A DNA stretch of 64,000 bases from Oscillospiraceae bacterium (GTDB taxonomy: Bacteria > Bacillota > Clostridia > Oscillospirales > Acutalibacteraceae): assembly GCA_902769255.1 (NCBI GenBank), contig CACXOM010000003.1:1-64000 (forward strand), given 5' to 3'. The notes beneath the pieces were generated by a model. That model searched no databases and was not told the origin of the DNA. It saw only the letters and a list, made by a program, of their open reading frames with translations. The translations under genes and the position numbers were made by a program. Of this stretch, positions 38,635-48,001 are shown piece by piece. Numbering within the stretch: the stretch's first letter is position 1; every line of letters begins with the position of its first letter.

Positions 38635-39531
38635 TTACTTTTCAGCAAAAGGATAATATTTTTTTACGTTGTCTGTTTTTGTTTCTTTTGAAGGTGGAAT
38701 ACCGTATTTCTTAGAATAGGCCTTATAAAATGCAACATAAGAGGTGAAGCCACATAGTTCCGCTATTTTTACGGCTGATAAATTCCAAGATTTACGAAGC
38801 ATATTTTTTGCGTCTACCAGGCGCAAATCATTTATATAGTTATAAAAGGTCATATTAGTTGCATTTTTAACTATTTTGTTTATTGTAGGCGTTGAAACCG
38901 AAAATTTTTCTTTTAACACATCATAACTTATTTTTTCGGTATAATGCTTTTTAATGTAATGCATTATTTCAACAGAGAGATTTGTAGAAACTTTAATCGT
39001 ACCGAATACTTTGTCATAGGTTAAACACAAATCTGTAATAAGTGATAAACACATCGGTTCCACATGGCATCTTCCGTAATTGTTTGTTATAAGTTCACAC
39101 AAAGTATTAATGCCGTCAACAGTTCTTTTTAAGTATTTATTTCGATTTGTCAATATTATAGAGCTTTTATCTTGTAAATTATCAAACACTCTAAAATAGT
39201 TGCTTTCAGTATTAATTTTTTTAAATAAATTCGGATGAATAGTTATAAAAATAAATCTAAACGGTTTACTTTTTATCGGCTTAAATCTAAACTCTGCACT
39301 TTGATCGGAAACAACCAAAAAATTATCGTCAATAACTGTTGAATAATTGCCGGAGGTAACACGAAATTCACCATTGAAAGCATAAAACAGTTTATATGTA
39401 TTTTGATAGAATTTAAATTTTTGCATAAAAAACCCTTCATAATAAGGGTCTCGTTCGCCTGTTTCAAGATTAGGGGAACGGTCATAATATATGTTTAAAT
39501 CTGATGTGTAAAATCCTTCTTCTGTTCTCAT
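38635..39531 (-). CDS. AraC-family transcriptional regulator
   Basis: 298 residues. N-terminal cupin-like sensor (about 20-150; GEFRVTSGNYSTVIDD and RFIFITIHPNLF) and C-terminal double HTH (about 185-285; VSTPTINKIVKNAT, VKIAELCGFTSYVAFYKAYSKKYGIPPS). Regulators of this form often control sugar-use genes. It is divergent from the secreted GH16 gene across 156 bp, so GH16 is its most likely target. The GTGA in front of the start is a weak ribosome site. Confidence 0.9.
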   Translation of the reverse strand: MRTEEGFYTSDLNIYYDRSPNLETGERDPYYEGFFMQKFKFYQNTYKLFYAFNGEFRVTSGNYSTVIDDNFLVVSDQSAEFRFKPIKSKPFRFIFITIHPNLFKKINTESNYFRVFDNLQDKSSIILTNRNKYLKRTVDGINTLCELITNNYGRCHVEPMCLSLITDLCLTYDKVFGTIKVSTNLSVEIMHYIKKHYTEKISYDVLKEKFSVSTPTINKIVKNATNMTFYNYINDLRLVDAKNMLRKSWNLSAVKIAELCGFTSYVAFYKAYSKKYGIPPSKETKTDNVKKYYPFAEK

Positions 39532-39548
39532 TATATATCACCAATCTA

Positions 39549-39577
39549 ATTTTAATATAAAATAAGAAAAAAATCAA
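39549..39577 (-). promoter_or_regulatory. Putative promoter of the AraC gene
   Basis: On the minus strand TTGATT, 17 nt, TAAAAT, 17 nt before the ATG. Confidence 0.5.
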
Positions 39578-39627
39578 TTGTTTTTATAATTTTTAATATT
39601 TTTAATGATTGTTCTTTATTATATTAA

Positions 39628-39656
39628 TTGTGTTAAATAAAATATTAGGATATAAT
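39628..39656 (+). promoter_or_regulatory. Putative promoter of the GH16 gene
   Basis: TTGTGT, 17 nt, TATAAT, 31 nt before the ATG; the poor -35 would suit a promoter that needs an activator such as the divergent AraC protein. Confidence 0.55.
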
Positions 39657-39687
39657 GAACATAAAATGAAGAAACGGAGGAATTATA

Positions 39688-42279
39688 ATGAAAACTAAAA
39701 AAATACTTTCAACGCTAATGGCAATTGCAATGATATTTTCAATGTTAGGTGTAGTTGCTGCAGTAAATGTTTCGGCAGATGAATACCAACTTGTTTGGTC
39801 TGATGAGTTTGACGGAGCAGGAGTTAACCCTTGGAACTGGACTGCTTTAAAAGGCGGTTATGTACCAAACGGTGAAAGACATACACCTTCACCTGACAAC
39901 GCAACAGTACACGACGGCTCACTTGATATTAAAGGTGAATGTACTGTTATTGATGAAGACGGAAATCCAATGCCGGCAGGTCAAGTTTCAAAGTACACCA
40001 CAAATGTAAAAAGCGCAAGACTTGAAGGCGTAGGAAAACAGGCATTTAAATACGGTAAAGTTGAAATTAAAGCAAAACTTCCTAATGCTTGTTCATCTTG
40101 GCCCGCATTTTGGACCTGCGGTTGGGATAAATGGGGCGAAGACCCTGCAATAGGCGGCTCTAACTGGCCTGCTTGCGGTGAGATTGACTTTATGGAAATG
40201 ATGTGCGTAAACTCTAATAACGAGACAGTTGCGCCATCTGGTAAAAAGAATAAGGATAAAGAATATGAAGTACATCTTCATTGCGGTGCAAAAGATTCTG
40301 CTAACAATAAAATGTACGATCAACCTATTGACCCGGGTAACATTTGGAATTTAAATCCCGCAGGCGAGCAATTAGCAGCAAAATGGCATACATACGGCTT
40401 AATTTGGGAAAAAGACCAAATGCAGTTTACTATGGACGGTCAAGTTCGTATTACTGTTGATACTTCTAACGAACATCTTTTGGAAGTAGCGGCTAATAGA
40501 CTTAAAAACAGAGGTGGCACTAACAGTGATGTATATAAACTGTATAAATCTCAACTTGAAACAAAAGGTAATCCGTTCAACGATTTTGAACATTATTTCA
40601 TTTTAAGTTATGCTATCGGCGGTTTAGGTACAGAAAATCGTTTCTATTCAGATGAGTGGCCACAGCATATGCTTATCGACTACATTCGTGTATATCAGAA
40701 ACCAAATTCCGGTGCAACTCATAATGAAACTCTTTTCAACTATTGTGACAAATCTTATAACTATTGGTACGGCAAAGGTTTAGTAAAAGGTACTGATATG
40801 CCTCAAAACTGGATTGATGATCCAAAATATGGCGGTCAGAAAACAGAAGAAGCAGGAGTAACTTATGCTTCTGCAAGCAATACAACAGCACCATCATCGT
40901 CACAGACTCAACCATCATCATCTAAGACTCAGCCTTCATCCTCTCAATCACAAGGTTCAACAAGTAGCACAAAGGTTATTGATTGGGATGTAAATACCAA
41001 CTACTGGAAAGACGGTAGCACAATCTCAACATCTGTTGCTGACTGTATTACAGTTACAAAAGCAAGCGGTAAAAACTTAATCGGTTCAAGCAATAATAAC
41101 CTTTCCGGTTATGACGGACTTACATTCTCAGTAACACCAAATTCAGGTAATGAAAAAACAACGCTCGAAGTTCAGGTAGGCGATAAGACAGTAACATTCC
41201 CGATCGGCTCCGGAACAACAAATTGCACACTTCCGTTCGCTGATAACGGAATTACACCTACATCGGCTATGGATCTTTATATAAGAGCAACAGGCGGAGA
41301 TGTATCTAATTTAACAATAAGTGATATCTATGCTTACATTGGTAGTTCGATTCAAAAAACAGAATGTACATCAGCTCCTCAAGATACATATAGCCTCACA
41401 AAGTTTATTGACTGGGATGTAAATACAAACTACTGGAAAGAAAATAGTACTATCTCTACGTCCGTTGCTGATTGTATTACAGTTACAAAAGCAAGCGGTA
41501 AAAACTTAATAAGCTCAAATAATAATAACCTTGTAGGTTATAACGGTCTTAAATTCTCAGTAACACCAAATTCGGGCAACGAGAAAACAACACTTGAAAT
41601 TCAAGTGGGGGATGACGGTTCAAAAACAGCAACATTCGCAATCGGCTCCGGAAGAACAAATTGCACACTTAAATTCGCTGATTACGGAATTACCCCAAAT
41701 TCATCTATGCATATTTACATAAGAGCAACAGGCGGAGATGCATCTAATTTAACTATAAGCGATATTTATGCTTATACAGGAACTCTTATTCCTGATTTAA
41801 CACTAACAATGGTGCCGGGCGCATCAATTCGTATAGGAAACGTAAACGGCATTAGATTTACAACAACTGTAGATAAGACTCAACTTTCAAATCTTAAATC
41901 AAAAGGATATACAGTTGAATTAGGAACACTTATTGCACCTGCAGATAAAGTTGACGGATATTTAACTTTTGATTCAGCATTAAAAATAAATGTTCCATAT
42001 AACGCTGATTTGGTAGACGGAACAATCAGAGGCTCAATTATTAATATTCAAGAGTCAAATGATTACAACAGAACAAGCGGAAATATTGCAAGAACATTTA
42101 TCGGTAGAGGATATGCAAAAATTACAAAAGACAATGTAACTACTATCGTTTATTCTACAGAAAATTCTGACGGCCGTTCATTGGCACAAGTTGCAAGTGC
42201 ATTTAAATCAGATTCTGGATATTCTGCTCTTTCTGCTGATAAAAAAGCATTAGTAGATAGATGGGCTTCGTTCCTCTAA
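39688..42279 (+). CDS. Secreted modular beta-glucanase, GH16 family
   Basis: 863 residues. Signal peptide 1-30 (cleavage near VSA). GH16 domain about 33-337 with the catalytic motif EIDFME at 165-170 (nucleophile Glu165, acid/base Glu170) and WPAFWTCGW before it; likely a laminarinase or lichenase. A Ser/Thr/Gln/Pro linker spans 397-427. Two copies of an unassigned beta-rich module follow (about 430-551 and 573-698), about 80 percent alike by eye and each starting IDWDVNTNYW. Then a C-terminal domain (about 703-863; GASIRIGNVNGIRF) of a kind I recall from other Ruminococcal exoproteins. No dockerin or sortase motif. Strong GGAGGA ribosome site. Confidence 0.92.
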   Translation: MKTKKILSTLMAIAMIFSMLGVVAAVNVSADEYQLVWSDEFDGAGVNPWNWTALKGGYVPNGERHTPSPDNATVHDGSLDIKGECTVIDEDGNPMPAGQVSKYTTNVKSARLEGVGKQAFKYGKVEIKAKLPNACSSWPAFWTCGWDKWGEDPAIGGSNWPACGEIDFMEMMCVNSNNETVAPSGKKNKDKEYEVHLHCGAKDSANNKMYDQPIDPGNIWNLNPAGEQLAAKWHTYGLIWEKDQMQFTMDGQVRITVDTSNEHLLEVAANRLKNRGGTNSDVYKLYKSQLETKGNPFNDFEHYFILSYAIGGLGTENRFYSDEWPQHMLIDYIRVYQKPNSGATHNETLFNYCDKSYNYWYGKGLVKGTDMPQNWIDDPKYGGQKTEEAGVTYASASNTTAPSSSQTQPSSSKTQPSSSQSQGSTSSTKVIDWDVNTNYWKDGSTISTSVADCITVTKASGKNLIGSSNNNLSGYDGLTFSVTPNSGNEKTTLEVQVGDKTVTFPIGSGTTNCTLPFADNGITPTSAMDLYIRATGGDVSNLTISDIYAYIGSSIQKTECTSAPQDTYSLTKFIDWDVNTNYWKENSTISTSVADCITVTKASGKNLISSNNNNLVGYNGLKFSVTPNSGNEKTTLEIQVGDDGSKTATFAIGSGRTNCTLKFADYGITPNSSMHIYIRATGGDASNLTISDIYAYTGTLIPDLTLTMVPGASIRIGNVNGIRFTTTVDKTQLSNLKSKGYTVELGTLIAPADKVDGYLTFDSALKINVPYNADLVDGTIRGSIINIQESNDYNRTSGNIARTFIGRGYAKITKDNVTTIVYSTENSDGRSLAQVASAFKSDSGYSALSADKKALVDRWASFL
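40975..41781 (+). repeat. Internal tandem duplication coding for two GH16 accessory modules
   Basis: Segments about 40975-41343 and 41404-41781 are similar at DNA and protein level, including long identical runs around VADCITVTKASGKNL and VTPNSGNEKTTLE. This indicates a fairly recent duplication of one module, separated by a short linker. Confidence 0.85.
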
Positions 42280-42317: not shown

Positions 42318-42358
42318 GAATTGCCTTAAACGCAAGTTTAAGGCAATTCTTCTTTTTT
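42318..42358 (+). terminator. Terminator after the GH16 gene
   Basis: GAATTGCCTTAAAC-GCAA-GTTTAAGGCAATTC, a 14-bp perfect stem followed by TTCTTTTTT. Confidence 0.9.
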
Positions 42359-42454
42359 ACAGAAAAAATAATAAAAATTAATAAAAAACCCTTTTAAAAA
42401 CATATAAAATATGGTATTATAAATTGATAGTAAAAAAATAAGGAGGTCAGTAAT

Positions 42455-45400
42455 TTGGTTTTTCGCATATTTATTGAGAAAAAAAAAGGGCAAGACGCAG
42501 AGTCTAAAAACCTGTTAGGTTATATTAAAAATTATCTTTCGCTCGAGCCCGAAACTGATTTACGACTTTTTGACAGATATGATTTTGACGGATTAACCAG
42601 AGAAGAGTTTGAAAAAATCAAACAAAACTTTTTGGTTGATGAAAATGTTGATAACTGTTTTATCGACTATTTGCCACTTACTGCCGAATGGAAAAGCTTT
42701 TCTGTTTCTGACAAAAAAGGCAAATATAGCGAGAGAATAACAAATCTTAAAAGTTTTGCCCGTGCTTACGGTATTTTGGGCAATTATAAGGTCAACTATG
42801 CAAAAGTTATCGCATTGTCCGGCATTTTAACCGAGCATAAATTAAACGAAATTGAAAAATTGCTTGTTGATAAACGACTTTTTGAAGTTGGCGATGATAA
42901 CAAACCGCTCAGCCTTGAAGAAAATTTTGTTGATTTCGGCAGTTATGCGGTTGATGAAGACTTTTTAGATAAAAACGATATAGGCATTTATCAGTATTTA
43001 AACAGAATAAAACTGAAAATGTCTAAAGAAACACTTTGTTTAATTCGTGATTATTTTAAAACTCTTAAAAGAAATCCGACTTTGGTTGAACTTTTTTCAA
43101 TTGATTGTTATTTGGCATCAAAACAGCAGTCTGAGGGTTGCCGTTTTAGCGAAATAAATTTTGAAGATGTTCACAACATTTCACCGCTTAAAATAACTCT
43201 TGAAGAGTTTATTAGTATGCGTGAACAGGCGAGAATTGATAAAACGGGTACCATTTCACCTGCCGATATTGCAATGGCAGGTTATGACTATATGAAACAA
43301 AAAGGTCAAATTCAAGATATTGTTCTTGAAGATAATGTTCCGCTTATTCAGGTTCCTGTTGATGTAAACGGCGTTGTTGAGCAATATTTAATCTCGTTTA
43401 AAGCCGGCAAAACAAACAAAACCGATGAATTTTGTGCCTCGCCGAAAAGCACGTTTAATATGCTTGAAGCGTATCAGTCGGTTGATGTTGATTTACGCCC
43501 TGTAAACGACAAACACGACAGTTTTGCGCCTGCTTTTAACTTTGAAAACTGCGCCGCAGGCGATGCGTTGACACTTTGCAATGCGAAAATGAATAAGCAA
43601 CTCGGAATTCCGACTGCATTTTTGGGGCAGATTATTTCAAATAACATTAAAAAACCGGTTAATTTCGGCGCAACAGTTTTTGCCGGAACAAAGACCGATT
43701 ACATAGCAAAAGTTGAATCGGAAGATGTTATTATTATGATTGGCAGTAAAATGAGGGTCGACGACTTTAACAGCGACAGTTTTACTCAATCAAGAAATAA
43801 TTTAATGCAGGAAAAAATCGCAAGATTTTTCAAAAATGCAAGCAACGGATTTAACTATATTAAAAAAACGCTTGACTTTTCAAATGGCATTATTTCGGGC
43901 GTTTTAAACGAAGTAAACGGTGCCGAAATTGATATTAACCGAATTGTTAAACCGAAAGATTTACCGCTTGCTCATTTTGCGCTCAGCGTTAAAACAAACA
44001 GAGCCGGAATTATTGTTTCAAAAGAGCATATTGATGATATTAAAAATATTTGCGCTAATCTTTCGCTTTCATCTCATATAATCGGTAAAGTTTGTGACGA
44101 TGAAAAACTTGTTGTTTTAAACGGTAAAAAACAGGTTGCGAATATTCCTACCGACTTTATTTATTCGCTAAATTTAGGTGAAAATAAAAAGGTTTTAATT
44201 AAAGATAATTCAAATAAAAAATTTGATTTTGACGCGTATTCTTCTGAATTTGATAAAATTGATAAAAAAGAGGCATTTTTGCTTAATCTTAAAAATGTTT
44301 CGGTTTCCTCTAAAAAGGGAATTGCATCTTACTTTGACTGGTCATCAGGTGCAGGTTGCGTTTTAGCGCCATATGGCGGCAACAACGAACTCACCCCGTC
44401 AGATGCGTTTGTTACTAAAATTCCTACCGATACAGGCAACACCAGCACCGCAACTTCAATTTCTTACGGTTGCTGTCCGAAAATTACGCAAGTAAGCGCT
44501 TATCACGGTGCAGCTTTCGCAATTATGGAAAGTATTTCAAAAATTGTCGCTTCGGGCTCAAACTCGGTAAATGCCAAATTGGGCATTTGTCAAAACATTT
44601 CTGACCCTAAAGGGTTTGAAACAAAATACAGCGACCTGTTTTCGTCTGTTTTTGGTGCGTTTAATACCGAAGCGGGTATGAATATTCCTGCAATTTCTTA
44701 TGATTTAAGCGTTGATAAGAAAAGCGAAAATCAAAATGATTTTGCTTGCTTTGCAATGGCGGTTTCAAAGGTAAACGAGGTAATTTCACCTGAGTTTAAG
44801 TCAGTCGGCTCAACGGTAATTTTAGTTCCAATGCCTATTGTTGAAAAAACAGGTTTGCCTGACTATGATAAAGCGAAGGTAATTTACCGCCAGATTCACT
44901 ATTTATCGCAAAACGGCAAAGTTCTTTCTGCAAGCGTTGTAGGCGAGGGCGGAATAGCCGCAACTGTTGCGAAAATGAGTTTCGGCAATTTAATAGGCGT
45001 TGATTTTGAAGATTTAGATAATAAAATGCTTTTCTCTTTCAAAACCGCTTCAATTGTTATTGAAACCGATAACCCAGGCGCTTTTTCGGGTATGGATACG
45101 GTTATTATCGGTAAAACCACCGCTTCATCGGCGTTTGATTTTGGCAATGAAAGAGTTACTATGCCTGAGGCGCTCTCTGCTTATACCGGTGCAATGCAGG
45201 CTTTTTACCCTACAAGAACAAACAAAAAAACCGCAATGGCGAAAATTACGCCTTTTGTTTCACAAGAAAAAGCAGTTTGCTCAAACAAAGTCGCTAAACC
45301 TAAAATTATTATTCCTGCTTTCACAAGCGTTTCGGGCGCTTATGATTTAGCACGTTCTTTTGAAAACGCAGGCGGTGAAACAGAAGTTTTCTGTGTAAAT

Positions 45401-46069
45401 CCAAAAGATTATCAAAACTCTTTGAAAAAACTTTCTGCTAAAATTGATGAGTCGCAAATAATTTGTTTGCCAAACGGCTCAAACTCCTATTTCTCAAGCG
45501 AATTAGGCTATGCCGTTATGACTAACCCAATTATAAGAGAATCGGTAATAAGACTTTTAAATAAAGACGGTCTTGCAATCGGTTTTGAAGAAGGTTTTGA
45601 TATACTTTTAAAAAGCGGTTTGCTTACCAGCGGTGTTTATAAATCGTTTGAAACAGGCGCTTATCTTGCAAACAGCGTTATCGGTATGCCTTCAAACAAT
45701 TTTGTTAATGTAAAAATTGTTTCAAACAAGTCGCCTTGGCTTGAAGGAATAAAAACAGGCGATGTTTTCAGGCAACCTGTTTGCCACAGCAAAGCAAGAT
45801 TTATTGCAGATGAAGTTACAATGCTTTCGCTTATAAATAACAATCAAATTGCAGCGCAATATGTTGATAAATCGGGCAAACCTGCGGCAAAAATGCCGTT
45901 TAACCCCGATTCGAGCGTTTGCGCAGTTGAAAGTTTAACTTCGCCTGACGGAAAAGTGCTTGGCAAAATTTCTTTGCCTCAAAGAAGAACACTCGGCTGT
46001 TTTAACAATATTATAGGCAATAAAGACCTGCGAATTTTTGAAGCAGGCATAAAATATTTTACTGATTAG
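42455..46069 (+). CDS. PurL-like (FGAM synthase-type) protein with all catalytic motifs altered
   Basis: 1204 residues, the size and domain order of the Clostridial fused FGAM synthase: PurS-like start with FIEKKKGQ and LRLFDRYDFDGLTREEF, two AIRS-type halves, then a class I amidotransferase part. Yet each signature is changed. ETHNHPTE is AGKTNKTDE (317-325). GGRTGRDG is GSKMRVDD (430-437). DFGAGG is DFSNGI (474-479). SESQERMA is SVKTNRAG (511-518). The glutaminase GICNGF is GFEEGF (1043-1048, Cys to Glu) and GKMGHSER is GKISLPQR (1170-1177, His to Leu). The frame is intact with a good AGGAGGT site and TTG start, so it is not a decaying pseudogene. I infer a non-catalytic or repurposed paralog. 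apgM follows after 11 nt. Confidence 0.8.
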   Translation: MVFRIFIEKKKGQDAESKNLLGYIKNYLSLEPETDLRLFDRYDFDGLTREEFEKIKQNFLVDENVDNCFIDYLPLTAEWKSFSVSDKKGKYSERITNLKSFARAYGILGNYKVNYAKVIALSGILTEHKLNEIEKLLVDKRLFEVGDDNKPLSLEENFVDFGSYAVDEDFLDKNDIGIYQYLNRIKLKMSKETLCLIRDYFKTLKRNPTLVELFSIDCYLASKQQSEGCRFSEINFEDVHNISPLKITLEEFISMREQARIDKTGTISPADIAMAGYDYMKQKGQIQDIVLEDNVPLIQVPVDVNGVVEQYLISFKAGKTNKTDEFCASPKSTFNMLEAYQSVDVDLRPVNDKHDSFAPAFNFENCAAGDALTLCNAKMNKQLGIPTAFLGQIISNNIKKPVNFGATVFAGTKTDYIAKVESEDVIIMIGSKMRVDDFNSDSFTQSRNNLMQEKIARFFKNASNGFNYIKKTLDFSNGIISGVLNEVNGAEIDINRIVKPKDLPLAHFALSVKTNRAGIIVSKEHIDDIKNICANLSLSSHIIGKVCDDEKLVVLNGKKQVANIPTDFIYSLNLGENKKVLIKDNSNKKFDFDAYSSEFDKIDKKEAFLLNLKNVSVSSKKGIASYFDWSSGAGCVLAPYGGNNELTPSDAFVTKIPTDTGNTSTATSISYGCCPKITQVSAYHGAAFAIMESISKIVASGSNSVNAKLGICQNISDPKGFETKYSDLFSSVFGAFNTEAGMNIPAISYDLSVDKKSENQNDFACFAMAVSKVNEVISPEFKSVGSTVILVPMPIVEKTGLPDYDKAKVIYRQIHYLSQNGKVLSASVVGEGGIAATVAKMSFGNLIGVDFEDLDNKMLFSFKTASIVIETDNPGAFSGMDTVIIGKTTASSAFDFGNERVTMPEALSAYTGAMQAFYPTRTNKKTAMAKITPFVSQEKAVCSNKVAKPKIIIPAFTSVSGAYDLARSFENAGGETEVFCVNPKDYQNSLKKLSAKIDESQIICLPNGSNSYFSSELGYAVMTNPIIRESVIRLLNKDGLAIGFEEGFDILLKSGLLTSGVYKSFETGAYLANSVIGMPSNNFVNVKIVSNKSPWLEGIKTGDVFRQPVCHSKARFIADEVTMLSLINNNQIAAQYVDKSGKPAAKMPFNPDSSVCAVESLTSPDGKVLGKISLPQRRTLGCFNNIIGNKDLRIFEAGIKYFTD

Positions 46070-46080
46070 AAAGGTAAGTT

Positions 46081-47286
46081 ATGAAATATTTAGTAGTACT
46101 TTGTGACGGAATGGCAGATGTGCCCAATGAAGAATTAAACGGAAAAACACCTATGCAGGTGGCAAATAAACCCTGTATGGACACACTTTGCAAAACAAGC
46201 GAAATCGGAATGTGCAAAACTGTTGCTAACGGCTTAAAACCGGGTAGCGACGTTGCTAATCTTTCGGTTTTGGGTTATGATGCAAAAACCTGTTATTCGG
46301 GTCGTTCACCGCTTGAAGCGGCAAACCTTGGAATTGACCTTAAAGATGATGAAATCGCTATGCGTTGCAACCTTGTAACTCTTTCAGATGAAAAAAATTA
46401 TGAAGACAGAGTTATGGTTGATTATTGCGGTGGCGACATTTCAACCGCCGAGGCAGACGAACTTGTAAAAGCATTGCAAGAGGCTTTTGGCGATGAGAAT
46501 AATCATTTTTACACAGGCGTGCAATACCGTCATTGTTTAGTTTCAAAATTAGGCAAATTAGGGCTTGAATTTACACCGCCTCACGACATTTCAGAAAAAG
46601 TTATAGGCGATTATTTAACAAAAGTACCTGAAGCGGCTCCTTTTGTTGAAATAATGAAAAAATCGGTTGAAGTGCTTGAAAATCACCCTGTTAATTTAAA
46701 GCGTAAAGCCGAGGGCAAACGCCCTGCAAATTCTGCTTGGTTTTGGGGCGAGGGCAAAAAACCGAACTTACCTTATTTTTACGATATGTTTTCGCTCAAA
46801 GGTGCGGTAGTATCAGCGGTTGACCTTATTCGAGGTATCGGCAAACTCGCTAAAATGGAAGTTGCCGAAATTGACGGCGTAACCGGCTATATTGATACTG
46901 ATTTTGATAAAAAAGCAAATACTGCTAAAGATTTGCTTAAGCGAAATGACTTTGTTTTTGTTCACCTTGAAGCGCCCGATGAATGTGGTCACAGAGGCGA
47001 AGTGCAAAACAAAGTTAAAGCAATTGAACTTATTGATGAGAAAATTCTTTCTCCTTTATATGAGGAACTTAAAAATAACTACGGCGAATTTAAAATTCTT
47101 GTAATGCCCGACCACCCAACACCGCTTACTGTGAGAACTCATACGTCTGACCCTGTTCCTTTTATGATTTTTGACTCAAGAAAATCATTTGACGGTGCCG
47201 ACTGCTTTTGCGAACAAACCGCCGAAAAATCAGGCGTTTTCATCGGCAAAAGTATGGATTTAATGCCGAAGTTTTTAGGTGAATAA
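46081..47286 (+). CDS. apgM: Cofactor-independent phosphoglycerate mutase, ApgM type
   Basis: 401 residues. VLCDGMADVP at the start, SDVANLSVLGYD (metal/phosphoserine region), the HLEAPDECGHRGE segment and VMPDHPTPL are typical of the alkaline-phosphatase superfamily 2,3-BPG-independent mutase of archaeal type. It interconverts 3- and 2-phosphoglycerate; some homologs sit with homoserine kinase function, so the substrate is not certain. AAAGGTAAG precedes the ATG. It lies between the PurL-like gene and an SDR gene, the latter overlapping its stop region. Confidence 0.9.
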   Translation: MKYLVVLCDGMADVPNEELNGKTPMQVANKPCMDTLCKTSEIGMCKTVANGLKPGSDVANLSVLGYDAKTCYSGRSPLEAANLGIDLKDDEIAMRCNLVTLSDEKNYEDRVMVDYCGGDISTAEADELVKALQEAFGDENNHFYTGVQYRHCLVSKLGKLGLEFTPPHDISEKVIGDYLTKVPEAAPFVEIMKKSVEVLENHPVNLKRKAEGKRPANSAWFWGEGKKPNLPYFYDMFSLKGAVVSAVDLIRGIGKLAKMEVAEIDGVTGYIDTDFDKKANTAKDLLKRNDFVFVHLEAPDECGHRGEVQNKVKAIELIDEKILSPLYEELKNNYGEFKILVMPDHPTPLTVRTHTSDPVPFMIFDSRKSFDGADCFCEQTAEKSGVFIGKSMDLMPKFLGE

Positions 47287-47287
47287 A

Positions 47288-48001
47288 ATGGCTAAAACAG
47301 TTATTGTTACAGGGGTAACAAGGGGAATAGGCAGGCAAATTACGCTTGATTTGGCTAATGAAGGCTATTTTGTTATAGGTTTTTACAAAAACAGCGAAAC
47401 TGAAGTGAAAGAACTTGAAAAAAACGGAAACATTAAAACTTATAAATGTGATATTACCGATAAAAATCAGGTTTTTACCGTTGCCGAAGAAATTTTAAAA
47501 AATAACAATATCTTTGCTATAATCAACAATGCAGGCGTTGCAAAAACTTCGCTTTTTTGCGATGTCAGCGAGCAAGATTTTGATTTTGTTATGAACACCA
47601 ATGTTAAAGGCGCATTTCTTGTTACAAAGGCGTTTTTGCAGAATATGATTAATAATAAATACGGCAAAATCGTTAATATTTCTTCAATTTGGGGCGTTTG
47701 CGGCGGCTCTTGCGAGGTTGTGTATTCCGCTTCAAAATCTGCTATAATCGGTATGAGCAAAGCACTTTCCCGTGAGCTCGGCCCCTCAAACATTACTGTA
47801 AACTGCATAGCACCGGGCGTAATTGAAACTGATATGATAAGCAATTTATCGCAAGATGATAAAGAATCGCTCGCTTTAGAAACATCTTTACAGCGAAACG
47901 GTAAGCCTAAAGATATAAGTGGCGCCGTATCATTTTTACTAAGCGATAAAGCCGATTTTATTACAGGACAGGTTTTAACTGTTGACGGTGGATTAATTTA
48001 A
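47288..48001 (+). CDS. Short-chain dehydrogenase/reductase (FabG-like)
   Basis: 237 residues from ATG 47288, placed just after the AGGTGA at the end of apgM. TGVTRGIGRQI (NADPH loop), INNAGVAKT, the catalytic set Ser in NISSIWG and YSASKSA (Tyr, Lys), VNCIAPGVIETDM and the final TGQVLTVDGGLI match 3-oxoacyl-ACP reductase-like SDRs. No other fatty-acid genes are close, so its substrate is open. Last gene of the PurL-like/apgM operon, ended by a strong terminator. Confidence 0.88.
   Translation: MAKTVIVTGVTRGIGRQITLDLANEGYFVIGFYKNSETEVKELEKNGNIKTYKCDITDKNQVFTVAEEILKNNNIFAIINNAGVAKTSLFCDVSEQDFDFVMNTNVKGAFLVTKAFLQNMINNKYGKIVNISSIWGVCGGSCEVVYSASKSAIIGMSKALSRELGPSNITVNCIAPGVIETDMISNLSQDDKESLALETSLQRNGKPKDISGAVSFLLSDKADFITGQVLTVDGGLI

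Follow-up and report, generated by a model that had tools for sequence, protein, structure and literature searches.

The window analyzed here, a stretch of 64,000 nucleotides from an Oscillospiraceae bacterium (contig CACXOM010000003.1 of the assembly GCA_902769255.1), carries on its forward strand a gene (42455..46069) for a protein of 1204 amino acids that resembles the fused phosphoribosylformylglycinamidine (FGAM) synthase PurL and in which the catalytic signatures are all replaced. This protein is termed pseudo-PurL in the following. The results suggest that the altered PurL copy of this gut bacterium is guarded by evolution for another job, and it is very probably a maintained pseudoenzyme derived from a displaced resident purL.

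The reading frame starts with TTG, comprises 1204 residues plus stop and is unbroken; the frame itself and its match to the NCBIfam model TIGR01857 confirm the intact PurL-like frame reported in the initial annotation. An AAGGAGG stretch upstream ends 8 nt from the TTG start. A probable −10 element (TATTAT, 42415-42420) and a ribosome-binding site (42440-42447) were assigned by eye together with the TTG start (42415..42457, + strand), as was a terminator-like hairpin with a T run (42318..42359, + strand), which belongs to the upstream gene. By eye, TATTAT, GGAGGTC and TTG are also common to the leaders of the altered genes in the genome of the window (G000) and in two further genomes of the genus (G150 and G151).

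An apgM-family gene (46081..47286, + strand; PRK04200 / TIGR02535 'proposed homoserine kinase') lies 11 nt 3′ of pseudo-purL and is followed by a gene for a FabG-like short-chain dehydrogenase/reductase (SDR; 47279..48001, + strand), which overlaps it by 8 nt and whose best curated match is the elongation factor P 5-aminopentanone reductase YmfI (239 bits vs 238). Judged solely from this spacing (11 nt, then the 8-nt overlap), the three genes are probably co-transcribed. The apgM product is above the cut-offs of the NCBIfam models for both phosphoglycerate mutase and the 'proposed homoserine kinase' (509 bits for TIGR02535, cut-off 446), so that the initial naming of this neighbour as a phosphoglycerate mutase is backed by its model without being the only name that is. 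No thrB above the cut-off was found in seven clade genomes including that of the window, in which the best matches reached 44-70 bits and may be other GHMP kinases. Since TIGR02535 is passed and thrB is missing above the cut-off in these seven genomes, the apgM-family gene of the window may code for a homoserine kinase. At the Rfam gathering score no riboswitch was detected in the window and hence none on the altered gene; the Rfam scan covered the loci other than L052, L054 and L058.

Loss of the catalytic signatures

With TIGR01857, pseudo-PurL reaches 592.4 bits in two stretches and fails the curated cut-off of 1057.05. Among the Pfam models only GATase_5 is above its cut-off (122 bits), while AIRS_C and the linker are below theirs. 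The replacements of the signatures were read from an alignment printed with 13 rows. At the same positions, ETHNHPTE is replaced by GKTNKTDE, GGRTGRDG by GSKMRVDD, DFGAGG by DFSNGI and SESQERM by SVKTNRA. In the glutaminase domain, Cys1135, His1260 and Glu1262 (E. coli PurL numbering), which we take to be the glutaminase triad from the Salmonella enzyme, correspond to Glu1045, Leu1174 and Gln1176, and LPQR stands at the position of HSER in active relatives. The earlier statement that all signatures as well as the glutaminase Cys and His are altered in place was thereby borne out, with the Glu of the triad as an additional loss. Retained are Arg1263 (R1177) and the His of SHGEGR (H1111), which is presumably distinct from the triad His.

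The synthase motif patterns were found in all 28 loci of the family's other genera (L007-L034), and none of them in the pseudo-PurL frame. In a control with 27 sequences of the operon-borne PurL type, here called type B as opposed to the type A found beside apgM, the four synthase signatures were present in 27/27, the exact GICNGFQ in 26/27 and GHSER in 23/27.

Pseudo-PurL thus resembles the clostridial PurL of TIGR01857 in its length, in the full-length PurL domain order, in descent and in some N-terminal and glutaminase-shell residues. It differs in its score below the cut-off, in the replaced signatures and triad and in a constraint that has moved to the A2/B2 half. As in a maintained pseudoenzyme, the catalytic residues are lost, the homology is clear, and frame and sequence are held by selection.

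Distribution and selection

The search for a second canonical purL in the genome of the window was successful. Its one other TIGR01857 protein (C11:41633-45307, 1902 bits) has the canonical signatures and is encoded on a separate contig. This gene is of type B and the last one of the operon purE-C-F-M-N-(241-aa gene)-PRK07106-purD-purL, 5′ of which a ZMP/ZTP riboswitch is located (L059:3915-4011). Because the catalytic residues are lost and the other purL is present, pseudo-PurL probably has no FGAM synthase activity of its own.

A full-length, stop-free altered copy occurs in all four genomes of the genus, with an identity to that of the window of 90% in G151, 85% in G150 and 38% (37-38%) in G050. 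Nearly all replacements and the open frame recur in the two sister species with 85 and 90% identity. The canonical copy is likewise present in 4/4 genomes; the one of G151 ends at a contig end. In total, 398 genomes of the family were surveyed, of which 343 gave a match at E<=1e-60, 27 of them twice. All 27 two-match genomes were looked at singly, and the motif checks comprised 28 loci and the 27 type B sequences. Among 26 re-examined two-match genomes, G277 is the sole further one with a second full-length frame pair; the extra matches outside the genus and G277 come from fragments or split genes. In G277, the second frame is partly decayed (ETSNLPTE, GGKTSGDG, DIGAGG, SESNEQL, glutaminase Cys replaced by Gly, GHSER kept), and the type B copy of this genome has intact motifs. 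Altered and type B copies therefore coexist in 5/5 genomes in which an altered copy was found.

A profile search in 394 genomes of the order yielded, among the matches listed, no further match scoring near the altered copies, the search being blind to independent altered copies that are equally similar to active PurL. In viral contigs, none of 73 candidate stretches obtained with the altered-copy alignment as query was confirmed, and active PurL as query gave two partial PurL relatives.

Two observations were made outside the genus. G480, from another family of the order, has two full-length PurLs (L128 and L129; 58% identical) with all checked motifs present, possibly an earlier stage of displacement. 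In the single-contig genome G309, the purL match (G309:C1:536976-540719) lies in five pieces with several stops over ~3.7 kb, with no other match listed, which is due either to real decay or to assembly errors.

It is highly unlikely that assembly or binning has brought together two purL types from different organisms. The genus is represented by draft assemblies throughout, of which three correspond to records of metagenome-assembled genomes, and G277 consists of 270 contigs with discordant apgM and PurL trees, as an artefact of this kind might produce. Against it, the same pair occurs in four separate assemblies of the genus with common genes flanking the altered copy, and the genome of the window (1.79 Mb, 35 contigs) is 99.7% complete with 0.2% contamination.

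The ratio of nonsynonymous to synonymous substitutions (dN/dS; Nei-Gojobori) among G000, G150 and G151 is as low for the altered gene (0.077-0.090) as one would expect of a maintained paralog. In the same trio, the type B purL gave 0.064-0.087, apgM 0.063-0.072 and the SDR gene 0.092-0.142, all of these ratios being approximate since dS amounts to 0.68-1.18 in the trio pairs. Purifying selection on the altered copy is thus about as strong as on the live PurL. Between G000 and G050, where dS is saturated, the altered gene reaches a dN of 0.67; the type B gene has 0.29 and apgM 0.26. Given this high dN and the low dN/dS of the trio, the altered gene changed fast after the loss and is tightly held now.

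This acceleration, together with the long branch, is what a dying gene that happens to be still unbroken would show. Such a gene is nevertheless strongly disfavoured as an explanation, as there are 0 stops in four genomes, a dN/dS of 0.08-0.09 and a common promoter-like block with ribosome-binding site. In a simple simulation of random change (100 runs), 0.37 neutral substitutions per site produced a mean of 45 stops in the frame, compared to none in the actual one. A decaying pseudogene was ruled out by the intact frames in 4/4 genomes and the dN/dS.

The description of the gene as a maintained non-catalytic or repurposed paralog is accordingly supported, as far as the sequence goes, by the second purL, the low dN/dS and the apgM synteny. 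Canonical residues did not turn up elsewhere in the protein, the genome has another purL, and the altered gene is not a lone decaying copy.

Origin at the purL-apgM locus

Ten type A-like loci from related genera were examined with wide flanks, two of them (G007 and G119) being classed as type A-like by length only. In seven of the ten, a type A purL whose motifs are intact is located directly 5′ of apgM. An SDR gene follows apgM in two of the seven purL-apgM loci (G081 and G113). Of 28 loci with flanks no longer than 1.5 kb, 12 include apgM. The altered genes hold this purL-apgM place of type A with the same neighbours.

In the PurL tree, which carries a long-branch warning, all altered copies are nested among the type A sequences together with G081 and G113 (100/100). 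Those of the genus make up a single clade (100/100) with conserved apgM synteny, as the initial annotation had envisaged, and the G277 copy joins them with weaker support (92/94). A grouping of the genus's altered copies with type B was rejected by the approximately unbiased (AU) test (p=5e-5). Type A genes with intact motifs and no type B were seen in G081 and in the incomplete genomes G113 and G210; in the latter two the active motifs are retained and the frames are cut at contig ends. In the rpoB tree, the sister group of the genus is formed by G113 and G210 (88/86), with G081 outside both. A recent duplication of the type B copy was ruled out by the tree, the AU test and the synteny.

The altered copies of G000 and G050 have 44 residues in common that are absent from all 33 active sequences; the L, P and Q in place of the lost HSE are among them. 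A topology uniting G277 with the G000 group without G050 was rejected (p=2.7e-6). On both grounds, a single origin is likely for the copies of the G000 group and of G050. The placement of the G277 copy with G113 was not rejected (p=0.087), and this copy may have branched off earlier or represent a case of its own. G277 (L060, C17) lacks an rpoB match. It was assigned to G113's genus, yet by apgM, unlike by PurL, it falls with the genus of the window, which may reflect a mixed bin or an exchange of the region.

Pseudo-PurL can best be read as the ancestral resident purL, displaced by the operon-borne type B gene, and not as a new duplicate, with losses that probably occurred stepwise and spared B2. 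In related genera, the type A PurL is a stand-alone protein with unaltered signatures, often encoded beside apgM, and the altered gene occupies this place and is derived from this type. Besides the canonical type B purL that the genus now carries as well, the old copy has been retained at its locus with an unbroken frame and under strong constraint, but the signatures for ATP and formylglycinamide ribonucleotide (FGAR) in A1/B1 are gone along with the glutaminase triad. The stages of decay appear traceable from intact type A (G081, G113, G210) via the partly decayed copy (G277) to the fully altered, constrained copies of the genus.

Conservation map and possible function

For the conservation map, 33 active sequences were used, 27 of type A and six of type B. 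The 448 columns that are identical in 32 or more of them count as invariant, and the shares below are those kept by every one of the genus's four altered copies; the domain boundaries were set from the alignment and are approximate. The A1/B1 half (aa 241-590; 43175..44224, + strand), the active-site half in PurL, keeps 13% of its invariant columns in A1 and 14% in B1. In the A2 subdomain (aa 591-777; 44225..44785, + strand), 31% are kept, including D628, E692 and K696. The B2 subdomain (aa 778-900; 44786..45154, + strand) keeps 8/8 and is the most conserved part of the altered copies. The glutaminase-like domain (aa 945-1204; 45287..46066, + strand), which gives the GATase_5 match and lacks the triad, retains 43% of its invariant columns, and the N-terminal part 53%. 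The interdomain Arg1263 is kept, and Asp657 corresponds to D628 by sequence context in our own reading, the two not being paired in the alignment. The initial view that the losses struck all domains at once does not hold in the light of B2 and of the partly decayed G277 copy.

Between G000 and G050, the identity in B2 is 0.60 for the altered pair and 0.45 for the type B pair, compared to 0.23 and 0.75 in A1. In 30-residue windows, the conservation profile of the altered copies is inversely correlated with that of type A (Spearman -0.45, p=0.003), whereas the profiles of active type A and type B correlate with +0.77. Five core domains (A1, B1, A2, B2 and glutaminase) were compared over 13 pairs which, like the active set, were picked from the best matches and are a non-random sample. 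B2 is the least conserved domain in 7/7 active-active pairs and the most conserved one in 5/6 pairs with an altered copy, the exception being G081-G277 (A2 0.77 > B2 0.72).

The A1/B1 half is itself under constraint now (dN/dS 0.058-0.126 in 100-aa windows, 201 to 600), and the replacement residues are mostly conserved in the close trio, as would be expected of a new enzyme with a rebuilt site. Such a new enzyme is quite improbable, as the residues at the replaced positions are not the same in the G000 group and in G050 (A1/B1 identity 0.24-0.25), which does not suggest one common new site. That pseudo-PurL joins the active type B PurL in a hetero-oligomer, as a subunit or allosteric partner, also seems unlikely, if somewhat less so. 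Both proteins occur together in all five genomes with an altered copy, and the partly kept glutaminase shell (the 43% above) and Arg1263 would suit such a role. Precedents are the inactive dihydroorotase homologue of Pseudomonas aspartate transcarbamoylase (PMC7053772, excerpt) and the herpesviral ORF75C, which recruits the host PFAS (PMC5811070, excerpt; correction PMC6155549). Set against this, the two genes lie on different contigs, and the type B copies of G050 and G000 are apart in the trees, so that a fixed co-evolved interface would need to have survived a partner swap. Moreover, as far as is known, large PurLs act as single chains.

Because of the conservation map and the apgM neighbourhood, a binding or regulatory role taken over from the active ancestor is favoured over both a type B partner and a new enzyme. 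The best explanation overall, with a slightly better than even chance, is that the displaced ancestral PurL has been retained for binding or regulation, without catalysis, on the basis of its A2/B2 half. The reason for its retention would be a second, non-catalytic role of the lineage's PurL, carried mainly by the A2/B2 half and the glutaminase shell. Most likely it would act as a ligand-binding regulator or scaffold, the ligand being perhaps an adenylate or a purine intermediate; this ligand is a guess, as is the partner, for which the adjacent apgM product or the active PurL come into question. The specific mechanism of an A2/B2 regulator is tentative and falls somewhat short of an even chance. 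More speculative and rather doubtful is the extension that type A PurLs, active ones included, have a second non-catalytic A2/B2 function tied to apgM, to which the arrival of type B would have stripped the old protein down. If true, pseudo-PurLs would bring to light an unnoticed task of a textbook enzyme of purine synthesis.

Several results weigh against the displaced PurL with a retained A2/B2 role. In 3/10 wide-flank loci apgM does not adjoin purL, and it was not found in 16/28 short-flank loci. G277 groups with the G000 group in the apgM tree (97/94), unlike in the PurL tree, and the type B gene of G050 is apart from those of G000/G150/G151 (PurL tree and a tree by a quick method); a single displacement event is therefore complicated by the type B split and the discord in G277. 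The 8/8 of B2 rests on few sites, as merely eight columns are invariant there. The altered profile and that of type B from the same species pair are not significantly correlated (Spearman -0.30, p=0.054). Compared to the active relative G081, the altered copies have a B2 identity of 0.59-0.72, and since B2 is well kept in this comparison, a new B2 function is not required. Two AlphaFold2 models of pseudo-PurL are poor, with a mean predicted local distance difference test score (pLDDT) of 42 and 48. Finally, ADP is a weak candidate ligand because three of four Mg-ligand positions of the Salmonella ADP site are not kept.

This site belongs to the structure of the Salmonella PurL, in which the active site lies in the A1/B1 half and an ADP site of unknown function in A2/B2; its position 679 is given in the same source (PMC3815217, excerpt). 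A protein without catalytic signatures yet with much of A2/B2 makes the old question of this ADP site testable on its own. With a numbering of the four Mg-ligand positions that we assume for the Salmonella enzyme, active clostridial PurLs likewise deviate at three of them, and Glu718 alone is kept throughout the rows. In the second, partial AlphaFold2 model, B2 is the main confident stretch (pLDDT 65-91 in 10-residue blocks). Foldseek with this poor model ranked PurL at the top with template modelling scores of only ~0.2, and a PDB search by sequence yielded a single weak match, PurQ of T. maritima (E 9e-5).

To our knowledge, few bacterial pseudoenzymes of core nucleotide synthesis are known. 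No bacterial PurL pseudoenzyme was found in the open-access literature searched, partly in the form of excerpts and with subscription papers mostly outside, and the PurL-derived ones therein are herpesviral only. HisZ, a HisRS-like non-catalytic regulatory subunit of the short-form ATP phosphoribosyltransferase, is likewise a non-catalytic enzyme homologue kept for regulation, as pseudo-PurL may be; it differs in its family and known partner, and homology is not expected. The viral FGAR amidotransferases (vFGARATs; ORF75A and ORF75C of MHV68, ORF75 of KSHV, BNRF1 of EBV) have been described as PurL homologues that were captured and repurposed (PMC5811070, excerpt; also the subject of PMC5691659, excerpt). 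By their description, they are tegument proteins acting on host targets, whereas pseudo-PurL is encoded by a chromosomal bacterial gene at the ancestral locus. A viral origin of pseudo-PurL is contradicted by the bacterial purL-apgM locus and the 0/73 confirmed viral stretches. The pDHO of the Pseudomonas aspartate transcarbamoylase is similarly an inactive homologue of a nucleotide-synthesis enzyme kept in a bacterium, with the difference that its partner and its necessity were shown, while the partner of pseudo-PurL is only guessed (PMC7053772, excerpt).

Upstream of pseudo-purL, the stretch 38635-42279 between an Rrf2-type gene (by eye) and the altered gene contains genes for an AraC-type regulator (by eye) and, according to a weak NCBIfam match, for what may be a secreted glucanase. 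In G151 (L052), no frame of at least 120 aa separates the Rrf2-type gene and the altered purL. Furthermore, a tRNA gene was detected with Rfam on the minus strand of the window at 963-1033.

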